Of a stretch of DNA of 37,230 nucleotides, positions 11,081-35,788 are shown piece by piece. The translations under genes were made by a program, and so were the position numbers. The number at the start of each line of letters is the position of its first letter. Position 1 is the first letter of the stretch. The notes below the pieces were generated by a model. It ran no database searches. It was not told where the DNA came from and was given only the letters and a program-made list of their open reading frames with translations. Source of the DNA: a virus; IMG/VR virus record IMGVR_UViG_3300031712_000159, positions 1 to 37,230 of that record, one strand, 5' to 3'.

Positions 11081-11091
11081 TTCCGTGTTGT

Positions 11092-11545: not shown

Positions 11546-11551
11546 AGTTCT

Positions 11552-13048: not shown

Positions 13049-13060
13049 TTTAATTTTTAT

Positions 13061-14573: not shown

Positions 14574-14591
14574 TTCCTTCACATTCACTTT

Positions 14592-14651
14592 TGAACCCGG
14601 AGGGGGATTCGAACCCCCCCTGATCGTTAGTTCCATACTCTATCGTCGGGT
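14592..14651 (-). ncRNA. tRNA-like element: T-arm plus partial acceptor stem
   Basis: On the minus strand the sequence contains a perfect T-arm, GGGGG TTCGAAT CCCCC. It is followed by CCGGGT, whose CGGGT can pair with ACCCG at 14647-14651, giving 5 acceptor pairs. The 25 nt between cannot form D and anticodon arms, so it is not a functional canonical tRNA. No encoded CCA is present (ends TCA). It lies between the capsid gene and the holin start. Confidence 0.5.
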
Positions 14652-14665
14652 TTGGTTTTTAATTA

Positions 14666-15727: not shown

Positions 15728-15776
15728 GGTTATTTGTGTGATTTAGTTTTTACTTTTTTTGAATTATTATTTTAAA

Positions 15777-16427: not shown

Positions 16428-16475
16428 TTTATTTTTGGTTTTTGGTTTTTACTTTATTTAATTATTACTTTTTAA

Positions 16476-16982: not shown

Positions 16983-17618
16983 TGATTCTTCTTTGGTTTG
17001 GTTAATATCAATTTGGTTATAAAAATTCCATAAATCTTTTGCAGTGGCCGTTTTAAGAGCTTCAGCAGAAATAGTAACAACAGGGCCATCATATATTTCG
17101 TCGCACAGTTTTTCATTAAGTGCGTCCTGGGCAGTGTACCATTTATTAATACCTTTCTGCATAAACTTTGCTTTCACTGCATCAACAGTAAGACCGGTGC
17201 GCGTTGCGTAAATTTTCGCAAGATCATCACCAAGTGAATCTATCTGGTCAGCAGCTTCGCGGAGCGTATCGGCATCACCATCGGCAGAACCTGATGGAGG
17301 ATGTGTCATGAGCCTGGCATATTTGCTCATGTATATTTTTTTGCCGCTCATGGCAATTACACTGCCCATGCTTGCAGCAACTCCATCAACATAAGTATTG
17401 ATTTCGCATTTACTTTGTTTGTTGATATTGTAAATGGCAATACCATCAAACACACTTCCACCCGGACAGTTGATGCGAACATTTACTTTATTGTATTGTT
17501 TGGAAATTTCGTTGAGTTGTTCAGCGTACTCCTGGGCTGTGGTACCCATAAAAATAATACCGTACAGGTATATTTCCGCAGTGTTTTCGTCGAGCGCTCT
17601 GAATTTAATTTTAGACAT
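16476..17618 (-). CDS. Head maturation protease fused to scaffold (ClpP-like; Mu gpI analogue)
   Basis: This 380-aa protein has an N-terminal ClpP/SppA-type serine protease: the oxyanion region CPGGSVFDGIAIYN (51-64), nucleophile Ser83 in GVAASMGS and His106 in LMTHPPSG. After about residue 200 comes a scaffold: charged, helical, with AAEAKLKAFEDKAKLDNEAK and a terminal DAFKALFKAQYGSEYKG typical of capsid-binding scaffold tails. The enzyme trims scaffold and head proteins inside the prohead. It is the first gene of the leftward late arm. An in-frame internal start at 16982 probably yields the scaffold alone. Confidence 0.85.
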   Translation of the reverse strand: MSKIKFRALDENTAEIYLYGIIFMGTTAQEYAEQLNEISKQYNKVNVRINCPGGSVFDGIAIYNINKQSKCEINTYVDGVAASMGSVIAMSGKKIYMSKYARLMTHPPSGSADGDADTLREAADQIDSLGDDLAKIYATRTGLTVDAVKAKFMQKGINKWYTAQDALNEKLCDEIYDGPVVTISAEALKTATAKDLWNFYNQIDINQTKEESMKNLAKFIALFAIANMSIPADASEEVLLTNLQSLVDLNKDATAKLTAAEAKLKAFEDKAKLDNEAKITKLVQDAIDAGKITADLKETYTTMATSNFEAAEKAINAMKVYTPVIGQLKPGEQKAADEKANWSFMDYQKKDPKALEKMKSENIDAFKALFKAQYGSEYKG

Positions 17619-23511: not shown

Positions 23512-23700
23512 TTAGACAATCTTTTGATTTGTTTGCTTTCGTTCTGATGCGATAACAAACAATATTCCGAATAAAGGTGTGTAAATAATAGAAAGTCCCA
23601 AAGCATTCCACGCTCCAAGTTTTCTTCTTGAACCTTCATCCGCAATAATTACTAAAAGAAAAATGTACCAAATGATAGCAAGTACTAAATAAGCATTCAT
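23512..23700 (-). CDS. Small two-helix membrane protein
   Basis: This 62-aa protein has two hydrophobic segments, about 4-20 (YLVLAIIWYIFLLVIIA) and 32-50 (ALGLSIIYTPLFGILFVIA), joined by a charged loop EGSRRKLG, with a basic tail. It is the distal gene of the leftward early/middle transcript. Function unknown; superinfection exclusion or a lysis regulator are possible for such proteins, but nothing specific supports either. Confidence 0.6.
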   Translation of the reverse strand: MNAYLVLAIIWYIFLLVIIADEGSRRKLGAWNALGLSIIYTPLFGILFVIASERKQTNQKIV

Positions 23701-23714
23701 AATAACCTCCGTGT

Positions 23715-24002
23715 TTAAATATTAATAATAGGTTTCATTTCAATAATTATAACTGGAGATATTCTTTTACCACGCTGCTCAATCCATCTTTCAATATTAC
23801 CGAATTCTGCAGTTCCATTAGTAATTAATTTAATACCTCTCCATTTTAATTTGCCTTTAGTCAATTTACCTTTAATTAGTGGAGTTGCATTATTTCTTAA
23901 CGATTTCTCTAAAACTTCATTTATATCATTTGTTTGCTGATCAAGTAATTTTTTAAATGATTTTGATATATCTTCAGAAATAGATTCCAGTGTAATTTCC
24001 AT
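23715..24002 (-). CDS. Hypothetical early/middle protein
   Basis: This 95-aa protein has a helical charged N-terminal half (ISEDISKSFKKLLDQQTNDINEVLEKSL) and a beta-type end (SPVIIIEMKPIINI). It starts 29 bp from its upstream neighbour in a co-directional row. I do not recognise a family. The GKLTKGKLKWRGIK segment is basic. Confidence 0.55.
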   Translation of the reverse strand: MEITLESISEDISKSFKKLLDQQTNDINEVLEKSLRNNATPLIKGKLTKGKLKWRGIKLITNGTAEFGNIERWIEQRGKRISPVIIIEMKPIINI

Positions 24003-24032
24003 AACAAATAAAATTTTATTACTGTAAAAATA

Positions 24033-24386
24033 TTAATTTAATTCTTTTCTCTTCAATTTTCTTTGTTCATAAAATTCCTTTCCGGTAACTTTCATTTTTT
24101 TGTTAATGTTCTGAATGTAGTATTTAAGGCCCTTCAGATCGTATTTATAATATATCCTGCGCAATTCGAACAAATGATCAACTGAGTGGTTGTTATGCAG
24201 CATAGGAGGCATCATTTTAGCCACTATACGAATGTAGTCCATAACAAGAATGTCCTTGCCTTTGTATTCGGTGTATTGATGGCGAAGCAATGCACGGCTC
24301 TTTGTGGTGCGTTCCAGGTACCGGGTTCTCCAGCGCAGTGAAAAAATCTGAAAAAGCTTTGTAATATTCTGTAATTTAATAGTCAT
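24033..24386 (-). CDS. Hypothetical basic protein
   Basis: This 117-aa, strongly basic protein has many R, K and Y (SLRWRTRYLERTTKSRALLR at about 16-35, YYKYDLKGLKYYIQNINKKMK). It sits in the middle region, the place where Mu carries its late-transcription activator, and basic charge would suit a nucleic-acid binder. No helix-turn-helix is evident. Function unassigned. Confidence 0.55.
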   Translation of the reverse strand: MTIKLQNITKLFQIFSLRWRTRYLERTTKSRALLRHQYTEYKGKDILVMDYIRIVAKMMPPMLHNNHSVDHLFELRRIYYKYDLKGLKYYIQNINKKMKVTGKEFYEQRKLKRKELN

Positions 24387-24409
24387 ATAATATATATTTA
24401 ATGATGTTA

Positions 24410-25156
24410 TTATTTGGTTTCAGTTTCTTTTTGTTTATTATTCACTTTTCCGAATGGATTAAGCATTTCATCGTAAGTAATATCCTTGCTTCCCTCCCTG
24501 AAGGAATCATCAATTTTAATAGTTGATTTTTCAACTGTAACTTCCAATACTTTACTTTCTTCTTGTGAGTTATGACTTGGAGGTAGTAATTTAACCTTAC
24601 TCCCTTTCAAACTTTCTTTAATATCATCCAACATGCTTGTAATTTCGGAATCAATAATGTTGGTAAGCGTTCGGGCTTTCTTCATATTAAAGCGCTTATT
24701 ATACAACGCAGTACTTCTTTTTTCAAGATCAGTAATACCCATATAATGCTCAGCATGAAATTCACTAAGCGGAAACTTCGTTTGTTTAACAACATTACTT
24801 GTGACTTGTGACTTGTGACTTGTGACCTGTAACTTCTTATTATATGAAGCAGGCTTGCATTCAATAGAGCAATACATTTCACGGTTATACTTGTAAACAA
24901 ATTCCTTTCCGCATTTCTTGCATGGTTTTGTTTTACCGTTAGGATTATTAAGCACAGGAACAACAGGAACAACCGGCACAATCTTTTTAATTTTTGATTT
25001 ATGACTTATGACTTGTGCATCTACATCAAGTTTCACCAGGCGTTTAAAAGTCTTTTCAATTTCTTCATTCAGTTTTTTGTCATCTATCTTGCCAATAGGA
25101 TTAGCAATGCCATCGGCCATGATGTAAATTTTTTCAATGTGAATGTGAATTTCCAT
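24410..25156 (-). CDS. Zinc-ribbon-like protein with heptanucleotide-derived insertions
   Basis: This 248-aa protein has a treble-clef or ribbon motif CKKCGKEFVYKYNREMYCSIEC (Cys pairs 19 residues apart, about 78-99), preceded by the low-complexity VVPVVPVL. Three parts of the gene consist of the 7-mer family found elsewhere. They give VISHKSK, LQVTSHKSQVTS and PSHNSQ in the protein, which look like insertions in linkers. The start codon is uncertain: the first residues MEIHIHIEKIYI precede a second Met (MADGIANPIG). A DNA-interacting role is plausible but not shown. Confidence 0.6.
   Translation of the reverse strand: MEIHIHIEKIYIMADGIANPIGKIDDKKLNEEIEKTFKRLVKLDVDAQVISHKSKIKKIVPVVPVVPVLNNPNGKTKPCKKCGKEFVYKYNREMYCSIECKPASYNKKLQVTSHKSQVTSNVVKQTKFPLSEFHAEHYMGITDLEKRSTALYNKRFNMKKARTLTNIIDSEITSMLDDIKESLKGSKVKLLPPSHNSQEESKVLEVTVEKSTIKIDDSFREGSKDITYDEMLNPFGKVNNKQKETETK
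24563..24580. repeat. Short heptanucleotide repeat inside coding sequence
   Basis: TTGT followed by GAGTTAT and GACTTGG. It encodes PSHNSQ near the C-terminus of the zinc-ribbon-like protein and belongs to the same 7-mer family as the array at 24796-24837. Confidence 0.5.
24796..24837. repeat. Heptanucleotide tandem array inside coding sequence
   Basis: Six units run TACTTGT, GACTTGT three times, GACCTGT, AACTTCT. Within the zinc-ribbon-like gene they encode LQVTSHKSQVTS. Three 7-mers equal 21 bp, so changes by three units keep the frame and other changes break it. Confidence 0.8.
24996..25016. repeat. Heptanucleotide repeat inside coding sequence
   Basis: GATTTAT, GACTTAT, GACTTGT in register, encoding AQVISHKSK in the N-terminal third of the same gene. 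This is the third in-gene copy of the 7-mer family. Confidence 0.65.
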
Positions 25157-25185
25157 GTTGTTTTTATTAATTGTGAGTAATGGTT

Positions 25186-25605
25186 TTAGTCGAATGAATT
25201 CTCGTATCGCTTTTGATTTAAAAATGTTTCAGGATATAACTTCTCCATGTTGGGCCGTGACGACAGGTAATTGCTGTATTTCTTTATTGCGCCAAATACA
25301 ATTGCCCTGGTGTGATCATCGAGCAGCTCGTACAATCTTTTTGCTCTTTCCTTTTTACCCATCTTATAATTGTAAGCATTCCAGAAAGCATCGAACGACA
25401 GATCCTGCGGCACTTCAATTTTCTGAAAGTTTGCGAATGCTTTATGCTGAAGGCTTTCAATACGCATAGGAAAATTATTGAAAACAAAATCCCACAGATC
25501 ATTGGTAATGGTGCAATCAAATTCGAAGTAAATGCAACGGCCCTCGTTATCATATTTAAATATGATGCTGCCTTCGTATCTGCTGTGTTTAAGTAAGTAT
25601 TTCAT
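25186..25605 (-). CDS. Hypothetical protein with replication-protein-like C-terminus
   Basis: This 139-aa protein has a C-terminal part, FDAFWNAYNYKMGKKERAKR then KLYPETFLNQKRYEN (about 70-135), that follows the pattern of the tail domain in many phage DnaD/replication initiator proteins (FW-Y-K-KK-A, then YP-T-LN-W). There the domain binds DNA or helicase. The N-terminal half is a small beta domain (IIFKYDNEGRCIYFEF). It is a stand-alone version here. Confidence 0.5.
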   Translation of the reverse strand: MKYLLKHSRYEGSIIFKYDNEGRCIYFEFDCTITNDLWDFVFNNFPMRIESLQHKAFANFQKIEVPQDLSFDAFWNAYNYKMGKKERAKRLYELLDDHTRAIVFGAIKKYSNYLSSRPNMEKLYPETFLNQKRYENSFD

Positions 25606-25607
25606 GA

Positions 25608-25904
25608 TTAATTAAACAATGTATGTTGTGTTGCGTTTTTCCTTTCTTTACGGGCCTCCCTGAATAACTTGTTGGCGAATGCATCAATCATGATCATGTC
25701 AAGGTCAATATGCTCCAGCTTCACTTCTGCAAGATCATTCTCGCTGTAAGTTTTTATAATTTTAATTAACCAGGGAACTGAAACGGTAAATTGATAACTC
25801 ATGAATTTTAAGCATTCATCATATTCAATTTTATGCCTGGAGAGTTCTCTGTAATAAATAAGAATTCTCAAATGTTTTTGATCTTTGCCTTCAGGTTGCA
25901 GCAT
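25608..25904 (-). CDS. Hypothetical helical protein
   Basis: This 98-aa, mostly helical protein (starts MLQPEGKDQKHLRILIYYRE) has a charged C-terminus ending AFANKLFREARKERKNATQH. It is separated by 2 bp from the gene downstream. No family recognised. It is about the length of a short Avd, but lacks a clear four-helix Avd pattern. Confidence 0.5.
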   Translation of the reverse strand: MLQPEGKDQKHLRILIYYRELSRHKIEYDECLKFMSYQFTVSVPWLIKIIKTYSENDLAEVKLEHIDLDMIMIDAFANKLFREARKERKNATQHTLFN

Positions 25905-25907
25905 TAA

Positions 25908-26207
25908 TTACAGGGTTTGCTGGTGAATAGTGTTTAACAATTTTGTGATTAATATTTGTTCGTAAATCCTATGCATACTCATTATTTTGCGAAGCTTTGT
26001 TTCTAAAAAATAACTTTCACACATTGTAAAACTCAGTGTTTGCTGTTTCTTTATGTTAAGGATCCTGCGCTGAAGCTTAAACATGAAAGCGGTCAGTACT
26101 TCCTTCTCAGCACGCTTGTAAAGCCCTTCAGGAATTATATTCATGAACTGCATTATCTGAAACAATGCCTTCAGCTCCTGGCTCGATAGTTTTATTTTTA
26201 CTTTCAT
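25908..26207 (-). CDS. Hypothetical basic helical protein
   Basis: This 99-aa protein is predicted all-helical with long basic amphipathic stretches (LKALFQIMQFM, AFMFKLQRRILNIKK, FLETKLRKIMSMHRIYEQIL). It begins inside the preceding gene (80-bp overlap). Being small, basic, helical and close to a DGR, it was considered as an Avd-like RT cofactor; similarity to Avd is not evident, so it is left unassigned. Confidence 0.5.
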   Translation of the reverse strand: MKVKIKLSSQELKALFQIMQFMNIIPEGLYKRAEKEVLTAFMFKLQRRILNIKKQQTLSFTMCESYFLETKLRKIMSMHRIYEQILITKLLNTIHQQTL

Positions 26208-26349
26208 GTTTTTCTTCTTTATTTTTTAGTTGATCTTCGTAAAGTGGTTTCATTGCTTTTATTCTCTTGTAATGCTCTGCTTCATCAATCCACTCTAACA
26301 CTTTTAAATATTCATTAAGCAGATCATCAGGTAAATTCGTATCGTTCAT
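26128..26349 (-). CDS. Hypothetical acidic small protein
   Basis: This 73-aa protein (MNDTNLPDDLLNEYLKVLEW) is acidic at the start, with a basic middle and disordered tail KNKEEKHESKNKTIEPGAEG. Its start codon lies inside the end of the interrupted gene at 26327-26635 in another frame, and its end overlaps the next gene by 80 bp. Function unknown. Confidence 0.45.
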   Translation of the reverse strand: MNDTNLPDDLLNEYLKVLEWIDEAEHYKRIKAMKPLYEDQLKNKEEKHESKNKTIEPGAEGIVSDNAVHEYNS

Positions 26350-26635
26350 TGATCTTTCTAATTGTAGTTGTAAATGGAAATCCTGTTGACCTGGGCACTT
26401 GCTGTATCTGATCCATCAATGTACTTCCTGAAGTAAACAGTACATGCATTTCGTTTTCAAATGACAATTGCAGAGTTAAACATTTACCATTGCCTTTTTA
26501 CTGATAACATTTTGAATCATCTATTTTATAATCATGCACCATTATTGATTTATCAAGTATTTTATGAATTTTAATTTTGTCACCTGTAAATTTGTTAGTC
26601 GTAGGCTTAATACCAAAGTCACTGAAATTCGTCAT
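26327..26635 (-). pseudogene. DGR-operon gene coupled to RT, interrupted by an in-frame TAA
   Basis: The start codon overlaps the RT stop as ATGA (26632-26635). The frame reads MTNFSDFGIKPTTNKFTGDK (1-20) and runs to TAA at codon 46 (26498-26500). After that codon it continues KGNGKCLTLQLSFENE, LFTSGSTLMDQIQQVP and FPFTTTIRKINERYEF to TGA at 26327-26329. The two halves make one coherent domain of 102 codons, similar to small OB-fold-like proteins I know from Bacteroidota mobile elements; a single-stranded nucleic-acid role is inference. Either the gene is broken by a nonsense mutation, or the stop is read through. It occupies the otherwise empty gap between RT and downstream genes. Confidence 0.7.
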
Positions 26636-27597
26636 GCTGCTAATTGATATAAATTAAACTTCTTTAATAAATGAATACTATCACAATGCTTTGCCCATCC
26701 ATAATAAGATGCTATGGATGCTTTATTTTTATTATTTGCAAGCATCCTGGCAAAAGCTTTTTTAATGCTTGGACGTAATAAAACGTGTGTATGATAATGG
26801 ACATAACCTACAAAATCAATTCCCCTGGATTCAACCGGGAATATTTGATAGTTATGTTTAATTGTGAGCTTTAAATTACAGCTAAAATAAAGCCGTATTT
26901 CAGCGAGTAATTGATGCAGGTACTTTTTATCATCAGACAGAATAACAATGTCGTCAGCGTAACGGAAATAATACTGTACGCCTTTTACTTCTTTTATCCA
27001 GTGATCGAAATACGTTAAATAGAAGTTTGCAAAATATTGACTCAGGTAGTTTCCAATGGGGAGTCCGGGTGCGCTGTCAATTATCTCATCAAGTAACCAA
27101 AGAAGATCTTGATCCTTAAATTTTCTACGGAGCAACATCTTGAGCACATCGTGATCCACGCTTGGATAAAACTTTTTAATGTCAAGTTTCAGGCAATAAG
27201 TTGTATCGGCATAATCATTCAATGCTTTGCGTACTGCATTAGAAGCTGCGTGAATGCCACGACCTTTTATACAACTGAAAGTATCTGCTGTAAATGTTGA
27301 AACAAACACCGGCTCAAGGATGTTCATCACAGCGTGATGAACGATCCTGTCCGGGTAATAAGGAAGCCGACTTATGATCCTTTCCTTTGTCTCATTAATC
27401 GTGAATGTAGTGTACTGGCTTGTTTTGTAAGTTCTGTTTTTCAAAGCTTCATGAAGAGCAATAATATTTGCTTCACAGTTCCTGTCGTGCAATTTAATCC
27501 CATACTGATTCCCTTTACCTTTACGTGCAATTGAATCGGCAAGCATTAAATTTTCAATGCTAATTATTTTTTCGTACAGGTTATTCAATCGTTTCAT
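26632..27597 (-). CDS. DGR reverse transcriptase
   Basis: This 321-aa RNA-dependent DNA polymerase shows the canonical order: YCLKLDIKKFYPSVDHD with catalytic Asp139 (motif A), GLPIGNYLSQYFANFYL at about 178-194 and YFRYADDIVIL with YADD at 213-216. A thumb-side GIDFVGYVHYHTHVLLRPS follows. I-G-x-x-x-S-Q in place of the Q-G-x-x-x-S-P of group II intron and retroviral enzymes is the DGR hallmark. There is no maturase or endonuclease domain. It copies the TR transcript lying just upstream (27716-27790) into adenine-mutagenised cDNA that replaces the VRs. It is co-oriented with its targets and the early operon and translationally coupled to the small downstream gene. Confidence 0.95.
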   Translation of the reverse strand: MKRLNNLYEKIISIENLMLADSIARKGKGNQYGIKLHDRNCEANIIALHEALKNRTYKTSQYTTFTINETKERIISRLPYYPDRIVHHAVMNILEPVFVSTFTADTFSCIKGRGIHAASNAVRKALNDYADTTYCLKLDIKKFYPSVDHDVLKMLLRRKFKDQDLLWLLDEIIDSAPGLPIGNYLSQYFANFYLTYFDHWIKEVKGVQYYFRYADDIVILSDDKKYLHQLLAEIRLYFSCNLKLTIKHNYQIFPVESRGIDFVGYVHYHTHVLLRPSIKKAFARMLANNKNKASIASYYGWAKHCDSIHLLKKFNLYQLAA

Positions 27598-27690
27598 TAT
27601 GCTTTGCCTTTGCTTGTTAAAAGAGAACTTTCATTTTCATTACTAATACCCTTTTAGTTATTTGTAATTTTTTGCCATGTTGGCACGGTC

Positions 27691-27806
27691 TGCATTATTC
27701 ATAATTATTTTGCATAGGTGAGAGCTGCAATTCGTATTCGTATTCCAGTTATCGTAATTCGCATTCGACAGACTGAAGCCTGAAGGGCGCAGCTCTGAAT
27801 AATGCA
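27691..27806 (-). ncRNA. Template RNA with two-part terminal stem
   Basis: Outer arms TGCATTATTC (27691-27700) and GAATAATGCA (27797-27806) are exact complements. Inner arms AGAGCTGC (27721-27728) and GCAGCTCT (27789-27796) are exact complements and abut the outer right arm. Together they make an 18-bp stem with a 20-nt bulge on one side, closing a loop that contains the TR core. The region lies between target gene 1 and the RT gene and has no ORF. RNA folding is predicted, not shown. Confidence 0.65.
27716..27790 (-). repeat. DGR template repeat (TR), 75 bp
   Basis: The TR aligns without gaps to 27904-27978 and 28316-28390. On the coding (minus) strand it has 20 adenines. VR1 differs at 15 of these, VR2 at 11, and neither differs at any of the 55 other positions. 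If translated it would read SNANYDNWNTNTNC in the core, showing the AAC/AAT codon enrichment that maximises amino-acid choice under adenine mutagenesis. It is upstream of the RT gene in the same direction. Confidence 0.97.
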
Positions 27807-27812
27807 CCACCT

Positions 27813-28226
27813 TTACTTTTTATACAATATATAATCCTTCCAATGTTTATTGAAATTCTTATTCTCAAAACAATACATTGCAACTTCTTTGTTTATAAAT
27901 TGAAGGCGAGAGCCGCAAGACGTAATCGTAATCCAGCGACCGAAATCCGCAGCCGACAGACCGAAGCCCGAAGGGCGCTTTTTATCTGCTTCAATTCCAA
28001 ATAACAGTTCATATTTCCAATTATTGTCGGTGTAATCAGGAATCCATTCTTTTCCGCCATTGGCTTCTGCATTTAATGCTGCAATGATAATCGGCAGGAT
28101 ATAACATGCATATAAATAATCTCTCATTTCTTCTGGAAATTTTGAGAATTCAGAAATCGTTAGCAGTTCCTTTTTACAGTATTTAAAAGCATCTGCGACT
28201 GTTTTAATTTTAGATTTGTAGTTCAT
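27813..28226 (-). CDS. DGR target protein 1
   Basis: This 137-aa protein has VR1 covering residues 84-108. Before it are WIPDYTDNN (61-69) and KYELLFG; after it QFINKEVAMYCFEN and a terminal YILYKK. The frame RPSGFGLS, variable core, W, CGSRL is a small-protein fold seen in Bacteroidota phage proteins, probably C-type-lectin related (inference from DGR targets generally). Compared with the TR-encoded residues, N92 to Ala, N94 to Asp, Y95 to Phe, D96 to Gly, N97 to Arg, N99 and N101 to Ile and N103 to Ser have changed. There is no signal peptide, membrane segment or tail-attachment domain. The gap to its paralogue upstream is 4 bp. The ligand is unknown. Confidence 0.9.
   Translation of the reverse strand: MNYKSKIKTVADAFKYCKKELLTISEFSKFPEEMRDYLYACYILPIIIAALNAEANGGKEWIPDYTDNNWKYELLFGIEADKKRPSGFGLSAADFGRWITITSCGSRLQFINKEVAMYCFENKNFNKHWKDYILYKK
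27904..27978 (-). repeat. Variable repeat 1 (VR1)
   Basis: 75 bp matching the TR except at 15 of its 20 coding-strand adenines. Changes go to G, C and T. It codes for residues 84-108 of target 1. Its 3' end, GCGGCTCTCGCCT on the coding strand, is the GC-rich initiation-of-homing-like end and differs from the TR end by two adenines. Confidence 0.96.
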
Positions 28227-28230
28227 GGTT

Positions 28231-28710
28231 TTATTTTTTAATGGTTATAAATTCTTTATATTTTTCAGTGAATTGGGCAAAAGCAAAACGCATTCTTTTT
28301 TCATCTTTAAAATAAAGGCGAGAGCCGCAATACGTATGCGCAAACCAGTTATCGTAATACGCATACGACAGACCGAAGCCCGAAGGGCGCATATCAAAGT
28401 AACCATACCACTTCGGTTCATTCGTAGTCCAGTCAGGTACCCATTTTTCATTTATAGCTTTTGTGATTATTACCAACTCCTGGTAACGCATCGTATGGCC
28501 CTCAATACCTGCTTTTACCATCTTGTGATAACATACTACATCTTCGTCTTGATCTCCGCAATATTTAATTGCTAATTCAAGACTGATAATACTTTCATAG
28601 TTGAAGTCAAAAGCATCTTTTCCATAAATATCATGGAGAAGTTCTTTTAATTCATCTGACAAATTCCCATAAAGCTTTTTCGCTTTTTCAATTGATTTTT
28701 GTGTTTCCAT
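28231..28710 (-). CDS. DGR target protein 2
   Basis: This 159-aa paralogue of target 1 has a longer helical N-terminus (KLYGNLSDELKELLHDIYG) and the shared WVPDWTTNEPKWYGYF block (90-105). VR2 is at about 108-132 (RPSGFGLS, YAYYDNWFAHTY, CGSRL), and the C-terminus is YFKDEKRMRFAFAQFTEKY. Variable positions favour aromatic residues (Y, Y, F, H, Y), as in binding surfaces. There is no signal peptide or fibre-attachment region. As first gene of the DGR block it follows an exported DPBB-like protein by 10 bp. Confidence 0.9.
   Translation of the reverse strand: METQKSIEKAKKLYGNLSDELKELLHDIYGKDAFDFNYESIISLELAIKYCGDQDEDVVCYHKMVKAGIEGHTMRYQELVIITKAINEKWVPDWTTNEPKWYGYFDMRPSGFGLSYAYYDNWFAHTYCGSRLYFKDEKRMRFAFAQFTEKYKEFITIKK
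28316..28390 (-). repeat. Variable repeat 2 (VR2)
   Basis: 75 bp matching the TR except at 11 of 20 coding-strand adenines, no other change. Nine TR adenines are unaltered, so VR2 keeps more TR identity than VR1. Four changed positions at the two flanks are A to G in both VRs. Confidence 0.96.
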
Positions 28711-28720
28711 TTTCCGTGTT

Positions 28721-29155
28721 TTAATTATTGTTTTTTATTACTTTGAATTTACATTTATAACAATCGCTCACACTATCGCAAACCGGTCTCCATATATCAA
28801 TAAGCTTTCCCTTGCTTCCGGCTTTATCAGTTACAACATACTTTCCCTTCAGGGAGCCAGTAAGAACCTGAACGGTATCAGTAAAATTTACATAGTAATC
28901 AAGTAGTTTCTGGCTCACAGCGCATATACCCACTTCACCTGGTTTACCTGTAGCGGTTATATTCTTATTCCATCCGCATTCTTTTTGCGTAGGATGGTAT
29001 ATTGTAACCCAACTGGTATGATAAGTCGGTATTGGATTTACAGGCCATTTAATTAAAGCTTTTGCGTTCTTTGGTTTTTCGGTATGCTGCAATGATGCAA
29101 GCGAGCCAATTAATATTACCAAAAGAACTAATGATAATTTTTGTTTGTGTGTCAT
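28721..29155 (-). CDS. Exported 3D/double-psi-barrel-like protein
   Basis: This 144-aa protein has an N-terminal signal-like helix (LSLVLLVILIGSLASLQ, about 7-23). The core WVTIYHPTQKECGWNKNITATGKPG, then ICAVSQKLL, GKYVVTDKAG and LIDIWRPV follow the order of the 3D domain found in cell-wall-acting proteins (surface-exposed T-A-x-G and D-x-x-G turns, I-D-I-W). Four cysteines (CGWN, GICA, VCDS, YKCK) suggest periplasmic disulfides. It would act on or bind peptidoglycan in the periplasm. It is the gene just before the DGR targets, so co-expression is likely. Confidence 0.55.
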   Translation of the reverse strand: MTHKQKLSLVLLVILIGSLASLQHTEKPKNAKALIKWPVNPIPTYHTSWVTIYHPTQKECGWNKNITATGKPGEVGICAVSQKLLDYYVNFTDTVQVLTGSLKGKYVVTDKAGSKGKLIDIWRPVCDSVSDCYKCKFKVIKNNN

Positions 29156-29172
29156 ATTTTTTAATTGTTTGT

Positions 29173-29231
29173 TCCCTGAGCTGGAGTCGAACCAGCTGAT
29201 GATCTCCTTTACATGTTTTTATTTTATCATC
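29173..29231 (-). ncRNA. tRNA-like T-arm with adjacent stem
   Basis: The minus strand has a perfect T-arm, GCTGG TTCGACT CCAGC (29180-29196), followed by TCAGGGA as would-be acceptor 3' strand. Upstream, GATGAT and ATCATC (29226-29231 and 29198-29203) pair over a 22-nt loop. No D-arm or proper anticodon arm can be drawn and no 7-bp acceptor is found. It lies in the gap between the DUF3164-like gene and the exported protein gene. Confidence 0.45.
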
Positions 29232-29289
29232 CCTTTATTCAAACCGTATACAGGAGTGTTGTCTTAATACAACTTACAGGGTTCCCATT

Positions 29290-29901
29290 TTATATTGATG
29301 AAAAATTCAAATCAATTACATTGTATTCACCATTCACATTTCGTTCCCAAATGCGATAGTATGTTTTACTGTCGGGCCTACGTATGCTTTCTTCCAATAG
29401 GTTCAAAGCTTCCTGGAATAAATGGTGTTTTATTTTGCTGCGATATTTTACCAGGCTTAAAACTTTTTTAGAATCAAGCTTTCCCTTTGTTGTACTGAAA
29501 GCATCCATTACAAGGTTTTTCAGGAACTCTTCATTCGATTCAAGTTTGCTGTCCAGGTATTCATCAAGTTTGCTTTTGCATCCTTCAATAAGCAATGCAT
29601 CAAAGTCAATTCTGTCGCTTATGCTTACTTCAATTTTAATGCTACTGTCGAAATTGTAAAAGGTGAAGTTTCCTTTTTGTTTTTCAACTTCCATTTCCTT
29701 CATGGCTTTGTTGTATACTTCGTCGCAAAGCTTTTTCATTTGCTTTTTATATGCTATAAGATCCTCGTTAATCTTTTTTGCATTGTTAAGCAGTGTGGCT
29801 GCACTTCTTTCTTTTAACCTGGCTAATCCTTTTACAAATTTTATTGGGCATAAGGTTCCGGTTTCATCTTTCCAGCTTTCCTGGTTTGTCTTTTGAATCA
29901 T
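29290..29901 (-). CDS. DUF3164-like early protein
   Basis: This 203-aa protein matches the DUF3164 family of Mu-like phages by pattern: W-x-D-x-x-G-x-x-x-P (SWKDETGTLCPIKFVKGL, about 9-26), a helical segment KKLCDEVYNKAMKEMEVEKQ and ISDRIDFDALLIEGCKSKLDE, with the terminal YRIWERNVNGEYNVIDLNF. The family is always near the transposase/GemA genes; its biochemical role is not known. Confidence 0.72.
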   Translation of the reverse strand: MIQKTNQESWKDETGTLCPIKFVKGLARLKERSAATLLNNAKKINEDLIAYKKQMKKLCDEVYNKAMKEMEVEKQKGNFTFYNFDSSIKIEVSISDRIDFDALLIEGCKSKLDEYLDSKLESNEEFLKNLVMDAFSTTKGKLDSKKVLSLVKYRSKIKHHLFQEALNLLEESIRRPDSKTYYRIWERNVNGEYNVIDLNFSSI

Positions 29902-29905
29902 TGTT

Positions 29906-30109
29906 TTAATTTTTAGGATTTATAATTGTTTGTATTTTATCTTTCAGCTCTCTTTGTTCCTGCAGGTATTCCTGTCGTTCGTTATATAGTGCAACAAACT
30001 TCCGGTTCTCTTCCGGGCATCGCTGCATTTGCTGTGTAGTTTCATTTATGTATATTGTAAGTATCTTCAATTCCTTCATCAATGCTGTCAATTCTTTATT
30101 TTGTGTCAT
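29906..30109 (-). CDS. Small coiled-coil protein
   Basis: This 67-aa, almost wholly helical protein with heptads (LMKELKILTIYINETTQQMQ, then YNERQEYLQEQRELKDKIQT) is probably a coiled-coil dimer. It starts 14 bp downstream of the previous small gene. Function unknown. Confidence 0.55.
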   Translation of the reverse strand: MTQNKELTALMKELKILTIYINETTQQMQRCPEENRKFVALYNERQEYLQEQRELKDKIQTIINPKN

Positions 30110-30123
30110 ACTGTTTCCAGCTC

Positions 30124-30303
30124 CTACCTACTTAACTTTATTTTCAACTCTTGCATTTCTTTCTCAATCTCTCTCATATCGTACCTGATCTTACAGGCCA
30201 GTTCCGCCTCAATGCCTCTTAATAAAATGAGTTTCTTTTCAGCAAGCCTGTCGTCAAGTTCCCTGAGCCGTTCCTGGCATTTTATTGTTTCCTGTTCAGT
30301 CAT
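30124..30303 (-). CDS. Small coiled-coil protein
   Basis: From ATG 30303, which overlaps the upstream stop as TAATG, the product is 59 aa: MTEQETIKCQERLRELDDRL and a continuing coiled coil. The frame extends upstream to 30342, but the coupled start is preferred. Function unknown; paired with the next small coiled-coil gene. Confidence 0.55.
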   Translation of the reverse strand: MTEQETIKCQERLRELDDRLAEKKLILLRGIEAELACKIRYDMREIEKEMQELKIKLSR

Positions 30304-30860
30304 TAGCGTTTGCCTATTATAGCGCGCAGTCTTTTTGAACAATCAGTCAACTCGGTTTCGTTCATTTCGTACAACTGCTTTCCCGAAATGCGTGGCTGAA
30401 GCAAGTATTCATTTACCCGGTTCCATCCATCTTCCTTGCTTCCGGTAATGCCGAGTTTGCTGAGCAACGTAAGAACCAGTGAACGGCTCTCCCTCAAATC
30501 ATGACTAACCTGAACAGTCTGCAGGCGATTTATTAATTCGTCAAGCTGATGCTCGTTTAATTCCTTTGTGCTTCTTGCGCTATAGGATGCAAGCAAATCG
30601 GCTTTTAAATCCATTAATCCCTTCTTTGCCAGGATAGCGTGAAACTGTCTTATTTTATCTTTTTTATCCATTTTAAAGTCTATTAATTCAACATTAAAAC
30701 CACTATCGAGCGCTTCGTAAAAAGTTTTATCAGCTTCATCACCGGTCATTTTAAAACTTGGTATCCCGTCAATAAGGCCGTGCAGCTCTTCATTATTAGG
30801 ACTAAAAAGGATCTTAACTCTCTTAGGATCTACTTTTTTGTTGTACATTGATATTTCCAT
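30303..30860 (-). CDS. GemA-like regulatory protein
   Basis: This 185-aa protein has a middle part, KIRQFHAILAKKGLMDLKAD and STKELNEHQLDELINRLQ (about 68-112), that follows the GemA/DUF1018 pattern. The C-terminal part, VLTLLSKLGITGSKEDGWNR and LLQPRISGKQLYEM, is the companion domain in Bacteroidota relatives. An extra N-terminal domain (residues 1-60, YNKKVDPKRVKILFSPNNEE) is not usual. In Mu, GemA modulates host and early gene expression. Confidence 0.65.
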   Translation of the reverse strand: MEISMYNKKVDPKRVKILFSPNNEELHGLIDGIPSFKMTGDEADKTFYEALDSGFNVELIDFKMDKKDKIRQFHAILAKKGLMDLKADLLASYSARSTKELNEHQLDELINRLQTVQVSHDLRESRSLVLTLLSKLGITGSKEDGWNRVNEYLLQPRISGKQLYEMNETELTDCSKRLRAIIGKR

Positions 30861-30885
30861 GATTTCCGTGTTTTTATAATTGTTA

Positions 30886-31383
30886 TTATTCGCCTCTGTA
30901 TAATCTCATTGTTGGCTCTACATAAGGAATCCCAATCAAATCAAACAAATCGCTCTCTTCCCTTATTTCGTGCTTTACTCCAAGTTTGTATAAATATCCG
31001 TGTTCAGCAAAATAACCTGCATAAGTCCATCCAAATCCAAGTACATTATGGCTGTATTCTGCGCTTCCTGTTCTTATGGCATATTGAAAACCGAAGTTCC
31101 CTGGCTCAGCAAAAAATAAATCGAGTTTTATTCCTTCAGGCAGCAAACGCTGTGTATAATAGCATGGCAATTCTCCTTTTACTTTCTGCCATTGGTTTAC
31201 AACCGTTGCAATGCCACTTGCGAATAAACCAATCTCGTAAGGTTTAGGAATGGCAACAAGTTCAATATCCCTGCATTCAACTTTCATTCTGCGAATGCTT
31301 CCGGCAATCTCAATACGTTCGCAATGCGGTGCAAGCATTGCTTTGTACTTTTCTGCCAATTCAAGTGCGTAGTGATATTCCAT
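30886..31383 (-). CDS. PolX-like nucleotidyltransferase
   Basis: From ATG 31383 the product is 165 aa (MEYHYALELAEKYKAML). The catalytic core is complete: G-S-x-R-R (IEIAGSIRRMKVE), D-x-E (CRDIELVAIP) and a third acidic residue in KLDLFFAEP. The finger-like FGFQYAIRTGSAEY follows, as in family X polymerase palm domains. It lacks the fingers/PHP domains of full PolX, so it may be a template-independent or gap-filling transferase. The ATG follows the RecA-like ATPase stop by 1 bp; the longer frame (to 31458) would overlap that gene by 74 bp. Confidence 0.72.
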   Translation of the reverse strand: MEYHYALELAEKYKAMLAPHCERIEIAGSIRRMKVECRDIELVAIPKPYEIGLFASGIATVVNQWQKVKGELPCYYTQRLLPEGIKLDLFFAEPGNFGFQYAIRTGSAEYSHNVLGFGWTYAGYFAEHGYLYKLGVKHEIREESDLFDLIGIPYVEPTMRLYRGE

Positions 31384-31384
31384 T

Positions 31385-32008
31385 TTAATTTGATTTAAAA
31401 TCACCCCAGTATTTTTTTGCTCCTTCGTACCATATTGTGTATTCTCCGGTTTCGCCAATGTACCTGCCTTTGCTTATTGCCTTGTATCCTTCAACCCATA
31501 CCTTCAGCGAAGCATCGTACATTACACTTTTTGCAGCTCTGCCTGCAGGCGATTTACCATCAGCATGAGAAATAAGTATTATCAACTTGTTCCGGTGTTT
31601 CTCCTTCAGCTCGCGGTAACTTTTATAGTTCAATCCTGAGTACTGGAAGCTGTCGATAATAACAACCCCTGGGGAATGTTTTTGGCTCAATCGTTCACTC
31701 AACGCTGCAATTGGCTCATGCACAAATCTTACTCTCGTTGCAACTTCATCCATCTTCACCGCTATCAATGCATTCTGTAATGTGGCCTCAAATTCTTCCT
31801 CCAGGGAGTTGTAAATAACTTTTTCAAACTGACTGATATATTTTGCAAGCTGTAAAATGAATCTCGTTTTTCCAGAGCTGCTATTACCATACACAAACCA
31901 TATTCCGCGCACTTCCGGTGTACCGAAAGCATCCTTCCACTCATTTTCAAATTCAAATACTTTTTTCTTCATGTTCAGCAGTTCTGTAATCGAGTAGGCT
32001 CTATTCAT
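31385..32008 (-). CDS. RecA-like P-loop ATPase
   Basis: This 207-aa protein has Walker A YGNSSSGKTRF (about 40-50) and Walker B GVVIIDSF (about 112-120). The segments between (KVIYNSLEEEFEATLQNAL, RNKLIILISHADGKSPAGRAA) follow the DnaB/RadA-type core. It probably acts on DNA during replication or transposition. It lies 44 bp downstream of the MuB-like gene and is coupled to the PolX-like gene. Confidence 0.72.
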   Translation of the reverse strand: MNRAYSITELLNMKKKVFEFENEWKDAFGTPEVRGIWFVYGNSSSGKTRFILQLAKYISQFEKVIYNSLEEEFEATLQNALIAVKMDEVATRVRFVHEPIAALSERLSQKHSPGVVIIDSFQYSGLNYKSYRELKEKHRNKLIILISHADGKSPAGRAAKSVMYDASLKVWVEGYKAISKGRYIGETGEYTIWYEGAKKYWGDFKSN

Positions 32009-32052
32009 ATTAATGCTTTCTTCCTTTATCTTACACTTGCTAATTACTTTTA

Positions 32053-32928
32053 CTATGCTACTCTTCTGCTCTTTTTAATTTCATCGTATATCCTTCTAAG
32101 GCTGCAATCGGTTGCTACAATCATTTTCCGTACATCTGCTTCAGGAGCATTAGCCTTAATGATCATAGCAGCATGTGCCTGTTTAAAATCAGTACTGTCG
32201 GCAGCTCCATCGGGAGTGGCTCTCTGGTACCTGCTTCCGTAACGACTGAATAATTCAGTATAACCAACCTTCTTATTGTCGATACTGCGCTGTATTTTGG
32301 CTTTCAGTCCGTCGGCTCCCATCATGTACCATCCGCAGGTGCGTTCAAGAGCGTTCCATAAAGCTTTCAGTTCAAGAAAGGCACCGTAATCGAGGTCACC
32401 GGCTTCATCAAGAATAATGAGGGGGGCCGGAAGCGACTTCAGATAAAAGACCAAATCCGCGTACACTTCCGAGTACTTACCTGCATACCCCACCCCAAAT
32501 TCTTTAGCAATGGCCCTTACTAATTTCTGTTTGCTCTTTACCTGGCTGCAATCAATATAAACTGCATCGGTATTGCTGCGTACATACACTTTTGCTGTGT
32601 AGCTTTTGCCAATATCAGCAACATCGCACAGTAAACGGCTTGCAGCATGATCCTGGCAAAACTTCAACTGTCCACTCACAAATTTGAATACAGGAGTATC
32701 AGCGGTGTTCCACTTTGCTTCGTTGGTAACGCTTAACTCAAGTATCCTGGCAAGCGATATCCAGTTTGCATTGCTCAGTATTCTTTCGGTTTTACCGTTC
32801 TTTATCTGCGAGTACTGTGCAGTATTAATGCCCAGCGATAAAGCGAATTTTGCATCGCTTCCGGTAAAGTTTACCCTGCGCTTGCCGAGTTCCTTTACAA
32901 TTGTTTGTTTTAAAGTTTCTGTAATCAT
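32053..32928 (-). CDS. MuB-like transposition ATPase
   Basis: This 291-aa AAA+ protein delivers target DNA to the transposase. It has an N-terminal helix-turn-helix (about 22-65, SLGINTAQYSQIKNGKTERI), Walker A DVADIGKSYTA (102-112) and Walker B LIILDEAGDLDYG (170-182). A C-terminal SLRRIYDEIKKSRR tail follows. The arrangement HTH-AAA matches MuB, as does position after the transposase. Confidence 0.9.
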   Translation of the reverse strand: MITETLKQTIVKELGKRRVNFTGSDAKFALSLGINTAQYSQIKNGKTERILSNANWISLARILELSVTNEAKWNTADTPVFKFVSGQLKFCQDHAASRLLCDVADIGKSYTAKVYVRSNTDAVYIDCSQVKSKQKLVRAIAKEFGVGYAGKYSEVYADLVFYLKSLPAPLIILDEAGDLDYGAFLELKALWNALERTCGWYMMGADGLKAKIQRSIDNKKVGYTELFSRYGSRYQRATPDGAADSTDFKQAHAAMIIKANAPEADVRKMIVATDCSLRRIYDEIKKSRRVA

Positions 32929-32958
32929 GGTCTTTTGGTCTTTTAGGTTTATATTGGA

Positions 32959-33255
32959 TTAAGTAGTTTTAACTGATTTTACTTTATATTTAAGAAATCC
33001 AAAATTTATGTAAGGAGGTTTATGAATAGGTAATACCTTCCCAACTTTTACAGATGTTAAAGGGATATATGCACCCTTCCATATTTCGGTTTGATATGGT
33101 ATTGCTTTTAAAATAATACCATCTTTATCTACCTGGAATTCTAAAAAATCTTGTCCTTTGTCTTCCAGTTCAATAATTAGTGCAGCATTAACATCAATTG
33201 ATATCTGCGGCTTTTCTAATTCTAATTTTTCAATGCTTACTTTGGTCTTTTTCAT
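32959..33255 (-). CDS. Hypothetical protein between MuA- and MuB-like genes
   Basis: This 98-aa beta-rich protein (VSIEKLELEKPQISIDVNAA, FLEFQVDKDGIILKAIP) has no motif I recognise. It starts 9 bp after the transposase stop, so it is in the same transcript. A transposition accessory is only suggested by location. Confidence 0.5.
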   Translation of the reverse strand: MKKTKVSIEKLELEKPQISIDVNAALIIELEDKGQDFLEFQVDKDGIILKAIPYQTEIWKGAYIPLTSVKVGKVLPIHKPPYINFGFLKYKVKSVKTT

Positions 33256-33264
33256 ATTTTAGTT

Positions 33265-35295
33265 TTATATTGATTCAATTCCGCGTTCTGTATAAAAGTC
33301 ACCACTGTATTTTTCAATAAGCGCATCATAATTGGCTTCGCTTTTTTCCTGCATACTGTCGCTGTTTACTGCTGCTATTTCTACAGGAGTATTCACAGCC
33401 TTTTCAAAACTATCGTTGCGTATTATTTCAACCCTTGTGGTCTTCTCAGCCTTATTATCCTTAATCATTTTATCGTAGCTGCTTATATACTTCGCCTGAT
33501 CCTGCCTTGTGGTTTCATCGGCATCGGTACGCTCGGCCATTGCCTCATTGTAGCGTGTAATAAGCGAGCAGGTGTCAATAAAACAATCGTTCTGGTATAT
33601 GTACACTTCTTTTATCTCGTCGTTGCTGTCTGGCAACCAGTAAGCCTGTACGCTGTAATTGTTCGGGAGCAGTCTGCCAATTATCGAAGGATGGCTCAGC
33701 TGGTATTCCTGGTATTGAACTTTTACTGCCTGGTTCCTCGTAACTGAGGTCGTTGTTAAATGTCCAATAGCACGCATCAGAACCGGACGGTTTATTTTCG
33801 GGGCATCAGGGTTCATGTTATGCTTCAGCACACCCATTCTGGTCATTCCCGGATACATTTTCTGATTACTGTGTAAAGCATTGTTGTATTGGTTTACATC
33901 GTTCATGTCGTCGGCAACAAGTTCATTGTAATCGAAAGTCTTTTCCTTGTATTCATCATTGCTTTCGGTATTGCTTTTAGGCTGATCAATCCTGTAAGCT
34001 TCACTTTTTGCCCACCAACGGCCTATTCCACCGTGATTACTTTTTTCAACACTGTATTTCTTTATCTTGTTGAAATGCTCGGCTCGTTTCTCCTGGCTGT
34101 TACTTGGAGCGCAGAAGCGAACAAACGTGAACATTTTAGCAAGTTCAGCAGCAAATTCATTCATTAAATGGTGTTCAACTTCCACTTCCATTGGCATTCC
34201 GAAGCCGTTATCATCAATAAACCGGAACATATCCCTGAAGCATTCAAATACCAGGCTCATATCCTTCTTCTGACTGTACGATTTTCCAATAACACAACCG
34301 CTGGCAACATCATAAGCGTAATAAGCCTTAACACGAATACCATTGTGCATTTTGCGCGGCAAATCCCTGTCGTCCATTGAAATCTTACTGAATGCGAAGA
34401 AAGGAGAGTGCCTTCTGAAATGCGGACGATACACGTTATTGTACTGAAGCGTACCTGATCGGTATTTTGCAACCACAGCAGCGTTATTTGGTTTGTTCAG
34501 ATAATTCCATATAGTTGCTTCGCTAAGTACTATTGGCTTTCCGTCTTCTTTAATAAAATCCTTGCGGTCAATTATCTCACCGGTCATTAAGTCCACCACT
34601 TCAATGGCTCCTCCTAAAAACTGTAAATACAAATCGTGAACATCGTTGCTGAAAGGTTTATTTTTCATGCAATACAGTGAAAGGATCAGGCGTTCAATGG
34701 TAGCAGTAACCTTTCGAGTATTTTGATTGCAGAACTTACCCGATATAAGGCTTTCGTATCCACTCTTCAGGTAATCCTTCAATTTCATTTTCAAACGCTT
34801 TTCGCTGGCAGGAAGAGTGTGGGGATATTCATCATTTTGTACGAGCATTACAGCCTCCGTCATATTTCCCCACATCTTACTGCATGATCCTTGTTTGCTT
34901 TTACGAATGGCCTTCGTTTCATTCAACACAATATGCATTGCATTCAATACCGATGCATTTGCAACATATTCGCGCTGGTAATCTTCCGGCAGCATCCTTC
35001 CATCGTACAACTTGTACATGGAATAAAACTCCACGGCTTTAGGATCCTTCTCCAGGCATCCTGCAAGTCCGCTTTTTTTGGCTGATTCTTTAGGATCACC
35101 GTATTTAATAATGATCTGTTCTTTCACCCCCGATGGGAGGCTATCGAACTTAACCAGGGCCGGAGTACCGTAACATCCCCTGCGGATAACCTCCAACTTA
35201 CCTCTTTGAGTGTAGTGGCGGTAATTGGCTATTGATATAATATCGGGAACCAATTCTCCGTGTTGTATAGCAAGTGTGTTATTATAATATTCCAT
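33265..35295 (-). CDS. MuA-like transposase
   Basis: This 676-aa protein has an N-terminal DNA-binding region (RRGCYGTPALVKFDSLPSGV). The catalytic core has FSKISMDDRDLP (Asp308/309), the strand EVEVEHHL at about 370-377 where the second catalytic acid falls, and PSNSQEKRAEHFNKIKKY with Glu402/406. Then come LHSNQKMYPGMTRMGVL and a beta-barrel domain (KVQYQEYQLSHPSIIGRLLP). It cuts and joins phage ends during replicative transposition. The second catalytic position reads Glu rather than Asp. An intrinsic terminator lies just upstream of the gene. Confidence 0.9.
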   Translation of the reverse strand: MEYYNNTLAIQHGELVPDIISIANYRHYTQRGKLEVIRRGCYGTPALVKFDSLPSGVKEQIIIKYGDPKESAKKSGLAGCLEKDPKAVEFYSMYKLYDGRMLPEDYQREYVANASVLNAMHIVLNETKAIRKSKQGSCSKMWGNMTEAVMLVQNDEYPHTLPASEKRLKMKLKDYLKSGYESLISGKFCNQNTRKVTATIERLILSLYCMKNKPFSNDVHDLYLQFLGGAIEVVDLMTGEIIDRKDFIKEDGKPIVLSEATIWNYLNKPNNAAVVAKYRSGTLQYNNVYRPHFRRHSPFFAFSKISMDDRDLPRKMHNGIRVKAYYAYDVASGCVIGKSYSQKKDMSLVFECFRDMFRFIDDNGFGMPMEVEVEHHLMNEFAAELAKMFTFVRFCAPSNSQEKRAEHFNKIKKYSVEKSNHGGIGRWWAKSEAYRIDQPKSNTESNDEYKEKTFDYNELVADDMNDVNQYNNALHSNQKMYPGMTRMGVLKHNMNPDAPKINRPVLMRAIGHLTTTSVTRNQAVKVQYQEYQLSHPSIIGRLLPNNYSVQAYWLPDSNDEIKEVYIYQNDCFIDTCSLITRYNEAMAERTDADETTRQDQAKYISSYDKMIKDNKAEKTTRVEIIRNDSFEKAVNTPVEIAAVNSDSMQEKSEANYDALIEKYSGDFYTERGIESI

Positions 35296-35306
35296 AGTGC
35301 TTGGAT

Positions 35307-35343
35307 AAAAAAACAGTGCCTCACCCCGAAGGGATCGGCACTG
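35307..35343 (-). terminator. Intrinsic terminator/attenuator upstream of the transposase
   Basis: On the minus strand the hairpin is CAGTGCC - 16 nt - GGCACTG with an inner CCC/GGG pairing, followed directly by T7 (plus-strand A7, 35307-35313). It sits 7 bp after the 77-aa gene and 12 bp before the transposase ATG, so it would cut early transcription before MuA unless read through. Confidence 0.8.
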
Positions 35344-35350
35344 AGCTTCT

Positions 35351-35584
35351 TTAAATTTTACTTGTGAATTTTCTTAATTGTCTTACATTACCTAAAGCAA
35401 CACCATTACATTCCTGGTATTTACTTTCTAAATTGACGGATATGGTATCACTTGATCCGTGAATTTCAGTTTTCATCAATAATTTCAGAACAATTGTGTT
35501 TCCAAGAGAAGAATCCTTTTCTTTTACTTGTTGTGCTGATCTTAGTATATCTTCAAGATCACGAATGTTAATTGATATTTCCAT
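35351..35584 (-). CDS. Hypothetical early protein
   Basis: This 77-aa protein (MEISINIRDLEDILRSAQQV; later TISVNLESKYQECNGVALGN) starts 18 bp after the Ner-like gene. I see no motif. It is placed before the attenuator, so it and the Ner-like gene would be expressed even when transcription stops there. Confidence 0.55.
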   Translation of the reverse strand: MEISINIRDLEDILRSAQQVKEKDSSLGNTIVLKLLMKTEIHGSSDTISVNLESKYQECNGVALGNVRQLRKFTSKI

Positions 35585-35602
35585 ATTGCTCAGATTTTGG
35601 AA

Positions 35603-35788
35603 TTATTTACTTTTTAATAATATTTTGCGACTTTCAATTATCTTTTCAGCAGCATTTCTCACTTTATCGGTCAATGTTCGTTTACCGTTTATTTGTTGCC
35701 ATGCTGTACTCAAGGCATATCCTGTCATTTCGCTGATTAGTTGGTAATCGCCCTTCCTTAATTTTGCCTTTAAATTTGCTTTTGCCAT
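35603..35788 (-). CDS. Ner/Cro-like small DNA-binding regulator
   Basis: This 61-aa basic protein has a single helix-turn-helix-like segment ISEMTGYALSTAWQQINGKR (about 18-37). It is the first gene of the leftward early operon, divergent from the repressor, with its promoter between them. That is the location and size of Ner in Mu, which shuts down early and repressor transcription. Confidence 0.65.
   Translation of the reverse strand: MAKANLKAKLRKGDYQLISEMTGYALSTAWQQINGKRTLTDKVRNAAEKIIESRKILLKSK

Follow-up and report, generated by a model that had tools for sequence, protein, structure and literature searches.

A Clade of Phage Diversity-Generating Retroelements Whose Targets Are Twin Small Proteins of the Early Gene Region

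Introduction

Phage diversity-generating retroelements (DGRs) are commonly read as host-range devices, and the DGR targets with a proven role bind, to our knowledge, extracellular ligands. The IMG/VR virus record IMGVR_UViG_3300031712_000159 (37,230 bases, analyzed over its entire length and hereafter called the window) carries a DGR whose two target genes are small and lie among transposition and replication genes. This arrangement raises the question of what such a DGR diversifies its targets for, if they are not parts of the tail. An initial annotation, made from the same sequence, had proposed that both proteins look soluble and may act in the cytoplasm or serve as shared subunits.

Results

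Location of the DGR in a Mu-Like Phage Genome

The window carries a Mu-like gene set that includes genes for a CI-like repressor, MuA, MuB, an ATPase, terminase, and portal, and its tail is of the contractile type with sheath and hub. All of the Mu-like features sought are present, namely a MuA-type transposase, a MuB-type ATPase, a portal, and Mu-like head morphogenesis genes, with PHROG matches to phrog_310 (2e-53), phrog_296 (9e-37), phrog_113 (portal), and phrog_220 (minor head). The virus is a phage of Bacteroidota-type bacteria.

Head and packaging genes occupy the plus strand at 17.8-23.5 kb, and the genes with a tail annotation (sheath, tape measure, hub, and fiber-like) are found at 1.3-13 kb in a run separate from that of the DGR. 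A single minus-strand run with mostly small gaps begins with the genes that precede MuA, ends with a small gene at 23.5 kb, and additionally includes HTH, ATPase, and HNH genes. The cassette is flanked in this run by MuA, MuB, and DUF3164 on one side and by a replication-like gene on the other (Table 1). Within the DGR (26632-28710), the minus-strand order is target B, target A, template repeat (TR), and reverse transcriptase (RT). Only 10 nt separate the upstream gene from target B and 4 nt separate B from A, and the RT gene overlaps the next gene. Because this gene order is Mu-like, we infer that the run is expressed early. No site fitting the Bacteroidota promoter pattern was found before the cassette. 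Thus, of the initial proposal that the targets belong to an early or middle transcript far from the tail genes, the distance and the early-cluster location hold, and the transcript itself is deduced from gene order.

Two further genes of this run deserve mention. The one directly upstream of the targets (28721-29155, minus strand) encodes a 144-aa protein with a hydrophobic N-terminus that is possibly exported, and no convincing match to it was found in Pfam, PHROG, or NCBIfam. Another (30886-31458, minus strand) encodes a nucleotidyltransferase-like protein with a weak polymerase-beta thumb match that falls below the Pfam cut-off.

Table 1. Positions of the DGR and of the gene runs that surround it in the window
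Feature	Positions	Strand	Evidence or remark
Late head/tail run	387-17618	-	Protease, major head protein, sheath, tape measure, hub, fiber-like genes; without any variable repeat (VR)
Early gene cluster enclosing the DGR	23512-35788	-	Gene calls and family matches; gaps computed
Replication-like gene	25186-25605	-	Inside early cluster
Conserved ~100-aa gene after RT	26327-26635	-	Profile matches 2.5e-20 and 4.3e-18 on two halves; read-through translation
DGR reverse transcriptase, 321 aa	26632-27597	-	RVT_1 2.1e-17; phrog_1423 7.6e-124; up to 76% identity to relatives
TR	27714-27791	-	IMH*-like 3′ end TTGCAGCTCTCACCT at 27716-27730
Target A, 137 aa, paralogue of B	27813-28226	-	ORF; phrog_11581 1.6e-7; AlphaFold2 pLDDT 78.8, pTM 0.75
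VR-A	27904-27978	-	15 mismatches to TR, all on TR adenines, P 7e-12
Putative IMH-like 3′ end of VR-A	27904-27918	-	15-mer shared with VR-B
Target B, 159 aa	28231-28710	-	ORF; phrog_11581 2.7e-14; AlphaFold2 pLDDT 85.8, pTM 0.73
VR-B	28314-28391	-	12 mismatches to TR, all on TR adenines, P 7e-9
Putative IMH-like 3′ end of VR-B	28316-28330	-	TTGCGGCTCTCGCCT, identical in both VRs
DUF3164	29290-29901	-	Inside early cluster
MuB	32053-32928	-	Inside early cluster
MuA	33265-35295	-	Inside early cluster

Template and Variable Repeats

The hallmark of DGRs, mismatches between TR and VR that are confined to TR adenines, is present in both targets (12/12 and 15/15). Adenines account for 21 of the 78 TR bases aligned to VR-B and for 20 of the 75 bases (TR 27716-27790) aligned to VR-A. 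The repeats end differently, with CGGCTCTCGCC in VR-A and VR-B and CAGCTCTCACC in the TR, such that within the 15-mer the TR bears A instead of G at two positions. These ends are therefore termed IMH-like and IMH*-like here, although their function as sites is predicted from the sequence.

More than 90% of VRs carry the invariant Gly and Arg of a GSRL motif opposite the A-bearing TR codons AGY and CAC, and similar A-for-G differences occur on the 5′ side. The TRs of the window and of L004-L083 retain adenines at the codons for SGFGF ... GSRL, where the VRs almost always have G. Because the GSRL Gly and Arg are the most conserved residues of the target family, these differences probably mark the borders of the transferred DNA (IMH versus IMH*) and not codons that are diversified.

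When the TR was scanned against the entire window, no third VR emerged, and therefore none of the fiber-like genes at 1.3-6.1 kb is a target of this DGR.

The RT and a Conserved Companion Gene

The RT translation shows the DGR motifs IGNYLSQ (IGxxxSQ) and YADD (YxDD). No match to the Avd family was found among the scanned neighbors of the RT. A conserved ~100-aa gene (phrog_19665 in relatives) is instead located directly 3′ of the RT in 114 of 116 cassettes with small targets (see below), and its product could stand in for Avd in these RTs, whose group lacks avd. In the window, the gene is broken by one in-frame stop (26498-26500), and therefore this particular DGR may be impaired. We dropped the idea that the gene is specific to small-target cassettes. 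That impression came from a short search range, and a wider search showed divergent copies slightly downstream in loci with tail-type targets.

Sequence and Predicted Structure of the Targets

The sole family match of A and B is phrog_11581, annotated as "unknown function," and neither protein matches Pfam, NCBIfam, PADLOC, or tail PHROGs, in agreement with the initial view that fiber-attachment domains are lacking. Strongly hydrophobic segments are likewise not apparent, as the most hydrophobic 19-residue windows average 0.56 (B) and 1.49 (A), and this value exceeds 1.6 in only 2 of 139 homologues.

Target B consists, in order, of an N-terminal helical module, a TFEDA-like helical core, the VR, and a C-terminal helix. 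The VR is thus internal, as the initial annotation had noted in counting about 28 residues between it and the C-terminus. There are 27 residues after the GSRL motif in B and 29 in A, and this tail carries a Phe that is nearly invariant across homologues (alignments of 57 rows for B and 63 rows for A). Homologues of B have one of two alternative N-terminal modules, helical or strand-like, before the same core, which suggests, from sequence, module swapping with a shared partner.

Structure prediction had been put forward as a check on the proteins, and for each target alone it yielded a mostly helical AlphaFold2 model (built from the same two alignments) with no recognizable fiber fold. The VR itself is a low-confidence segment in these models (pLDDT about 42-65), and the way in which it would be displayed is only predicted. 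No lectin was found among the fold matches of either model, in which the VR segment is the part modeled at low confidence. Specifically, a profile search of PDB sequences with A and B gave no credible match, Foldseek returned no PDB match for the target B model at E <= 0.001, and its BFVD matches for B at that threshold include only uncharacterized phage proteins. With VIA-align, the chains listed for B reach at most Z 2.9, and A has no listed chain.

At the randomized codons, Pro, Val, and Cys are below and Leu, Thr, Tyr, and Gly are above position-specific base expectation. Because base biases are not fully controlled in this comparison, we do not use residue composition as evidence of antibody-like selection.

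Related Cassettes and Their Neighborhoods

Searches with the window's own targets (tblastn and pattern scans) found nothing in phages or IMG/VR, and relatives were reached instead through the RT and through more typical target homologues. The RT search yielded 80 IMG/VR loci of 68-77% identity and 80 loci in genomes, mostly of Bacteroidota (Elizabethkingia, Flavobacterium, Pedobacter, Chryseobacterium, Niastella, and others), with no hits in plasmids. Cassettes were then identified by a script that seeks TR/VR pairs with adenine-only differences, and identical RTs were removed.

Among the resulting 132 non-redundant cassettes, 116 have exclusively small targets (hereafter mini-targets; one to four per cassette, median 150 aa), and the other 16 each carry one large target of tail type (median 474 aa). 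Two mini-targets are present in 92 of the 116, three in 17, four in 1, and one in 6. The recurrent layout places VRs ~190 and ~610 nt ahead of the TR, within ORFs of ~135 and ~155 aa. Cassettes with three or four targets include L135 (Dyadobacter sp. CY261), L133, L109, L114, and L118, and some of their targets are several kb from the RT, such as those of L135 (-4981 and +7082 relative to the RT) and of L133 (about -8.6 and -8.2 kb, with a further target of 313 aa located at the RT).

The surroundings of the two types differ. Where enough flank was available, a gene of more than 900 aa, the size of a tape-measure gene, occurs within 8 kb upstream in 7 of 82 mini-target cassettes versus 9 of 12 tail-type cassettes. 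Mu-like relatives share the order MuA, MuB, ATPase, DUF3164, targets, RT, and replication-like gene, and their head genes are encoded on the other strand. In other mini-target phages, the neighbors include DNA methyltransferases, primases, regulators, integrases, a head protease, and terminase. Tail families are absent from the 25 commonest neighbor matches of mini-target cassettes. When a profile of the family was run over the whole records of 36 relatives, at least 34 had the family at the cassette only (plus an echo of the TR), and extra copies were found in two (G006, far from the cassette, and G017, ~5 kb from it).

Evidence for Activity in Nature

Five near-identical viral contigs of the clade (L036, L039, L040, L041, and L044) differ by 0-1 change in the 942-nt RT gene and by 0-1 base change in the non-VR part of the target. 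A VR, however, has 11-13 changes, of which 9-13 are at TR adenines. This concentration of change at VR adenines shows that, in these relatives of the window, the DGR acts on both paralogues in nature.

Phages That Diversify a Tail-Side Protein and a Mini-Target

In four named phages, one TR serves both a tail or tail-side gene by the RT and a distant early mini-target. TR mismatches at adenines and at other bases number 13 and 1 in the tail gene and 19 and 0 in the small early protein of LoVEphage, and 12 and 1 versus 15 and 1 in the corresponding genes of Versailles. For BT-TP2, the values are 15 and 0 in a large gene just upstream of the RT and 14 and 0 in the early protein, and the crAss-like phage cr52_1 has 24 and 0 and 14 and 0. 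All four small targets match the family profile of the window (E 5e-22 to 2e-11). Those of LoVEphage and Versailles lie far from the RT among recombination, methyltransferase, and replication genes. This coexistence with a separate tail-side target, together with the early or replication-region location of the family in 116 cassettes, bears out the proposal that the proteins are not tail fibers.

The two kinds of target can also change separately. The early VRs of two LoVEphage genomes show 20 differences, all within nt 411-486 of the 585-nt gene, and the rest of the early gene can be identical while its VR changes. Conversely, two LoVEphage genomes have identical early genes and different tail VRs. 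Variation in the early VR is thus not coupled to that in the tail VR, and the early protein is a separate target that does not follow the tail.

The early mini-target of the Bacteroides phage Versailles (L087 10181-10762), which sits between NinB and a replisome organizer, is annotated as a "tail protein." This label was probably carried over from VR similarity, and it illustrates how annotation of that kind can mislabel mini-targets.

Evolution of the RTs and of the Paralogue Pair

In a tree of the RTs, 113 mini-target cassettes, that of the window among them, group as a single clade (support 0.86) that is nested among tail-type DGRs, with three changes between mini and tail labels overall. 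A shift from tail to early target is the simplest history on this tree, which is midpoint-rooted and has several weak forks.

On their own tree, the A and B proteins separate into two groups (5 label changes versus 43 in shuffles; the window's copies are long branches of unsure placement), and therefore the pair is old. Co-selection of their variable residues was also looked for and not found, as these residues are uncorrelated within a phage (0.103 versus 0.097 permuted). Given two old paralogous groups whose variable residues are not co-selected, the notion of shared subunits is not borne out.

Discussion

The non-tail, early-region location of the targets is well supported. From this location, the lack of export features, and the company of genes in which they are found, A and B likely act inside the cell, and we infer that they bind partners and have a role in conflict. 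Overall, we consider it fairly probable that A and B are early-made, probably intracellular, hypervariable binders that participate in phage-host or phage-phage conflict.

On this reading, a DGR of active type has moved off the tail. Its single TR sends adenine-specific mutations into two small paralogous early proteins, each of which would display a hypervariable segment of ~17-20 codons, flanked by a conserved helical core on one side and by a conserved C-terminal helix on the other. The two proteins would be made together with the transposition and replication genes after infection or induction and would most likely remain in the cell, where they could serve as adaptable binders against varying partners such as host defense proteins, host factors, or rival-phage proteins. 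Because more than 100 related cassettes target small early proteins, DGRs probably also serve a contest inside the infected cell. A bolder version, which we regard as possible but rather doubtful, is that this clade of temperate Bacteroidota phages turned a tail-diversifying retroelement to intracellular recognition, with twin early proteins neutralizing changing host-defense or rival-phage proteins in the manner of an antibody repertoire.

A gene of the early region may nevertheless encode a protein of the virion or one released at lysis, and other roles must be weighed. The mini-targets might be receptor-binding tips of the virion that are produced early and kept in store until they join the tail by way of the conserved helical core. 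Known phage DGR targets whose role has been tested bind receptors, the mini RT clade is nested among tail-type DGRs, and without another VR gene in this clade adsorption would otherwise gain nothing from the DGR. However, every mapped Mu-like relative has the targets in the early region, a mini-target exists alongside a tail or tail-side target in each of the four named phages, the mini-targets have no fiber or attachment domain, and the window has fiber-like genes of its own. We therefore judge this role unlikely. Still less likely, in our estimation, is that A and B leave the cell by some unknown route or at lysis and act as surface or post-lysis superinfection-exclusion factors or decoys that bind the receptors of competitors. 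Variable binding segments would suit such a task, and the gene with the hydrophobic N-terminus is directly upstream in the same run, but nearly all homologues lack a strongly hydrophobic segment, and the LoVEphage genomes with identical early VRs and different tail VRs indicate that the two need not track one ligand.

It might also be argued that the variation has no function, and that small genes acquired VRs passively by recombination with a tail gene. One TR can indeed serve several VRs, and extra copies exist in that 18 of the 116 cassettes have three or four targets. This explanation is nevertheless very improbable given that 113 mini-target cassettes form one RT clade without a tail target, and hence without a tail source, and that the scaffold of the family, the twin layout (92/116), and the flanking ~100-aa gene (114/116) are all conserved. 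Intracellular binders used in conflict thus remain our preferred explanation. The mini clade applies its DGR only to early, non-tail proteins, and in other phages a tail-side gene shares its TR with a protein of this kind, so that a role of targeted hypermutation in conflict inside the cell becomes directly testable.

Comparison with Known Systems

The DGR of the window resembles that of BPP-1 in its RT, its adenine-specific transfer from TR to VR, and the difference between IMH and IMH*. In BPP-1, however, the target Mtd is a tail protein of the C-type-lectin kind whose VR is C-terminal, whereas the window targets are proteins of 137 and 159 aa with internal VRs that are encoded in the early run, far from the tail module. 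The Hankyphage (Bacteroides p00) is likewise a transposable Bacteroidota phage with a DGR, and its MuA-like transposase is distantly similar (about 33% over 31% of the query). Its DGR has avd and is reported to diversify a tail fiber gene (PMC6199706, PMC12135933), and the Hankyphage was not matched by the mini-target searches. The RTs of crAss-like phage DGRs (crAssphage LMMB, PMC7290462; cr52_1; and others) are about 50-59% identical to that of the window, and an early mini-target that differs only at adenines is present in cr52_1 as well. Unlike in the window, the RT of these phages lies within the structural gene block beside a tail protein.

The closest parallels are phages with a second target. 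The Quimbyviridae DGR has a second, probably non-structural target among defense genes (Benler et al. 2021, PMC8008677). Quimbyvirus (compared by description only) and LoVEphage-type phages resemble the window in that a target is encoded away from the structural module, on the opposite strand, in the company of methyltransferases and other defense or counter-defense genes. For LoVEphage, the early target is homologous to the window family (profile E 5e-22; tblastn 2e-11 with a relative of a window target). These phages differ from the window in that the same TR also diversifies a tail-side protein and that there is one distant mini-target, rather than two tandem mini-targets adjoining the RT and no tail target. 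Four induced prophage species have also been described to carry second VRs distal from the RT, near counter-defense genes (PMC12629997). In the part of that report considered here, these VRs appear as additions to tail-targeting DGRs, and a clade with mini-targets only is not mentioned.

Thus, it had been proposed before that phage DGRs can have non-structural targets, for the Quimbyviridae (PMC8008677), and second VRs near counter-defense genes were also on record (PMC12629997). What is added here is a naturally active clade, spread over Bacteroidota phages, in which twin early proteins are the only targets, together with its conserved ~100-aa companion gene and the homology that links these proteins to the second targets of tail-diversifying phages.
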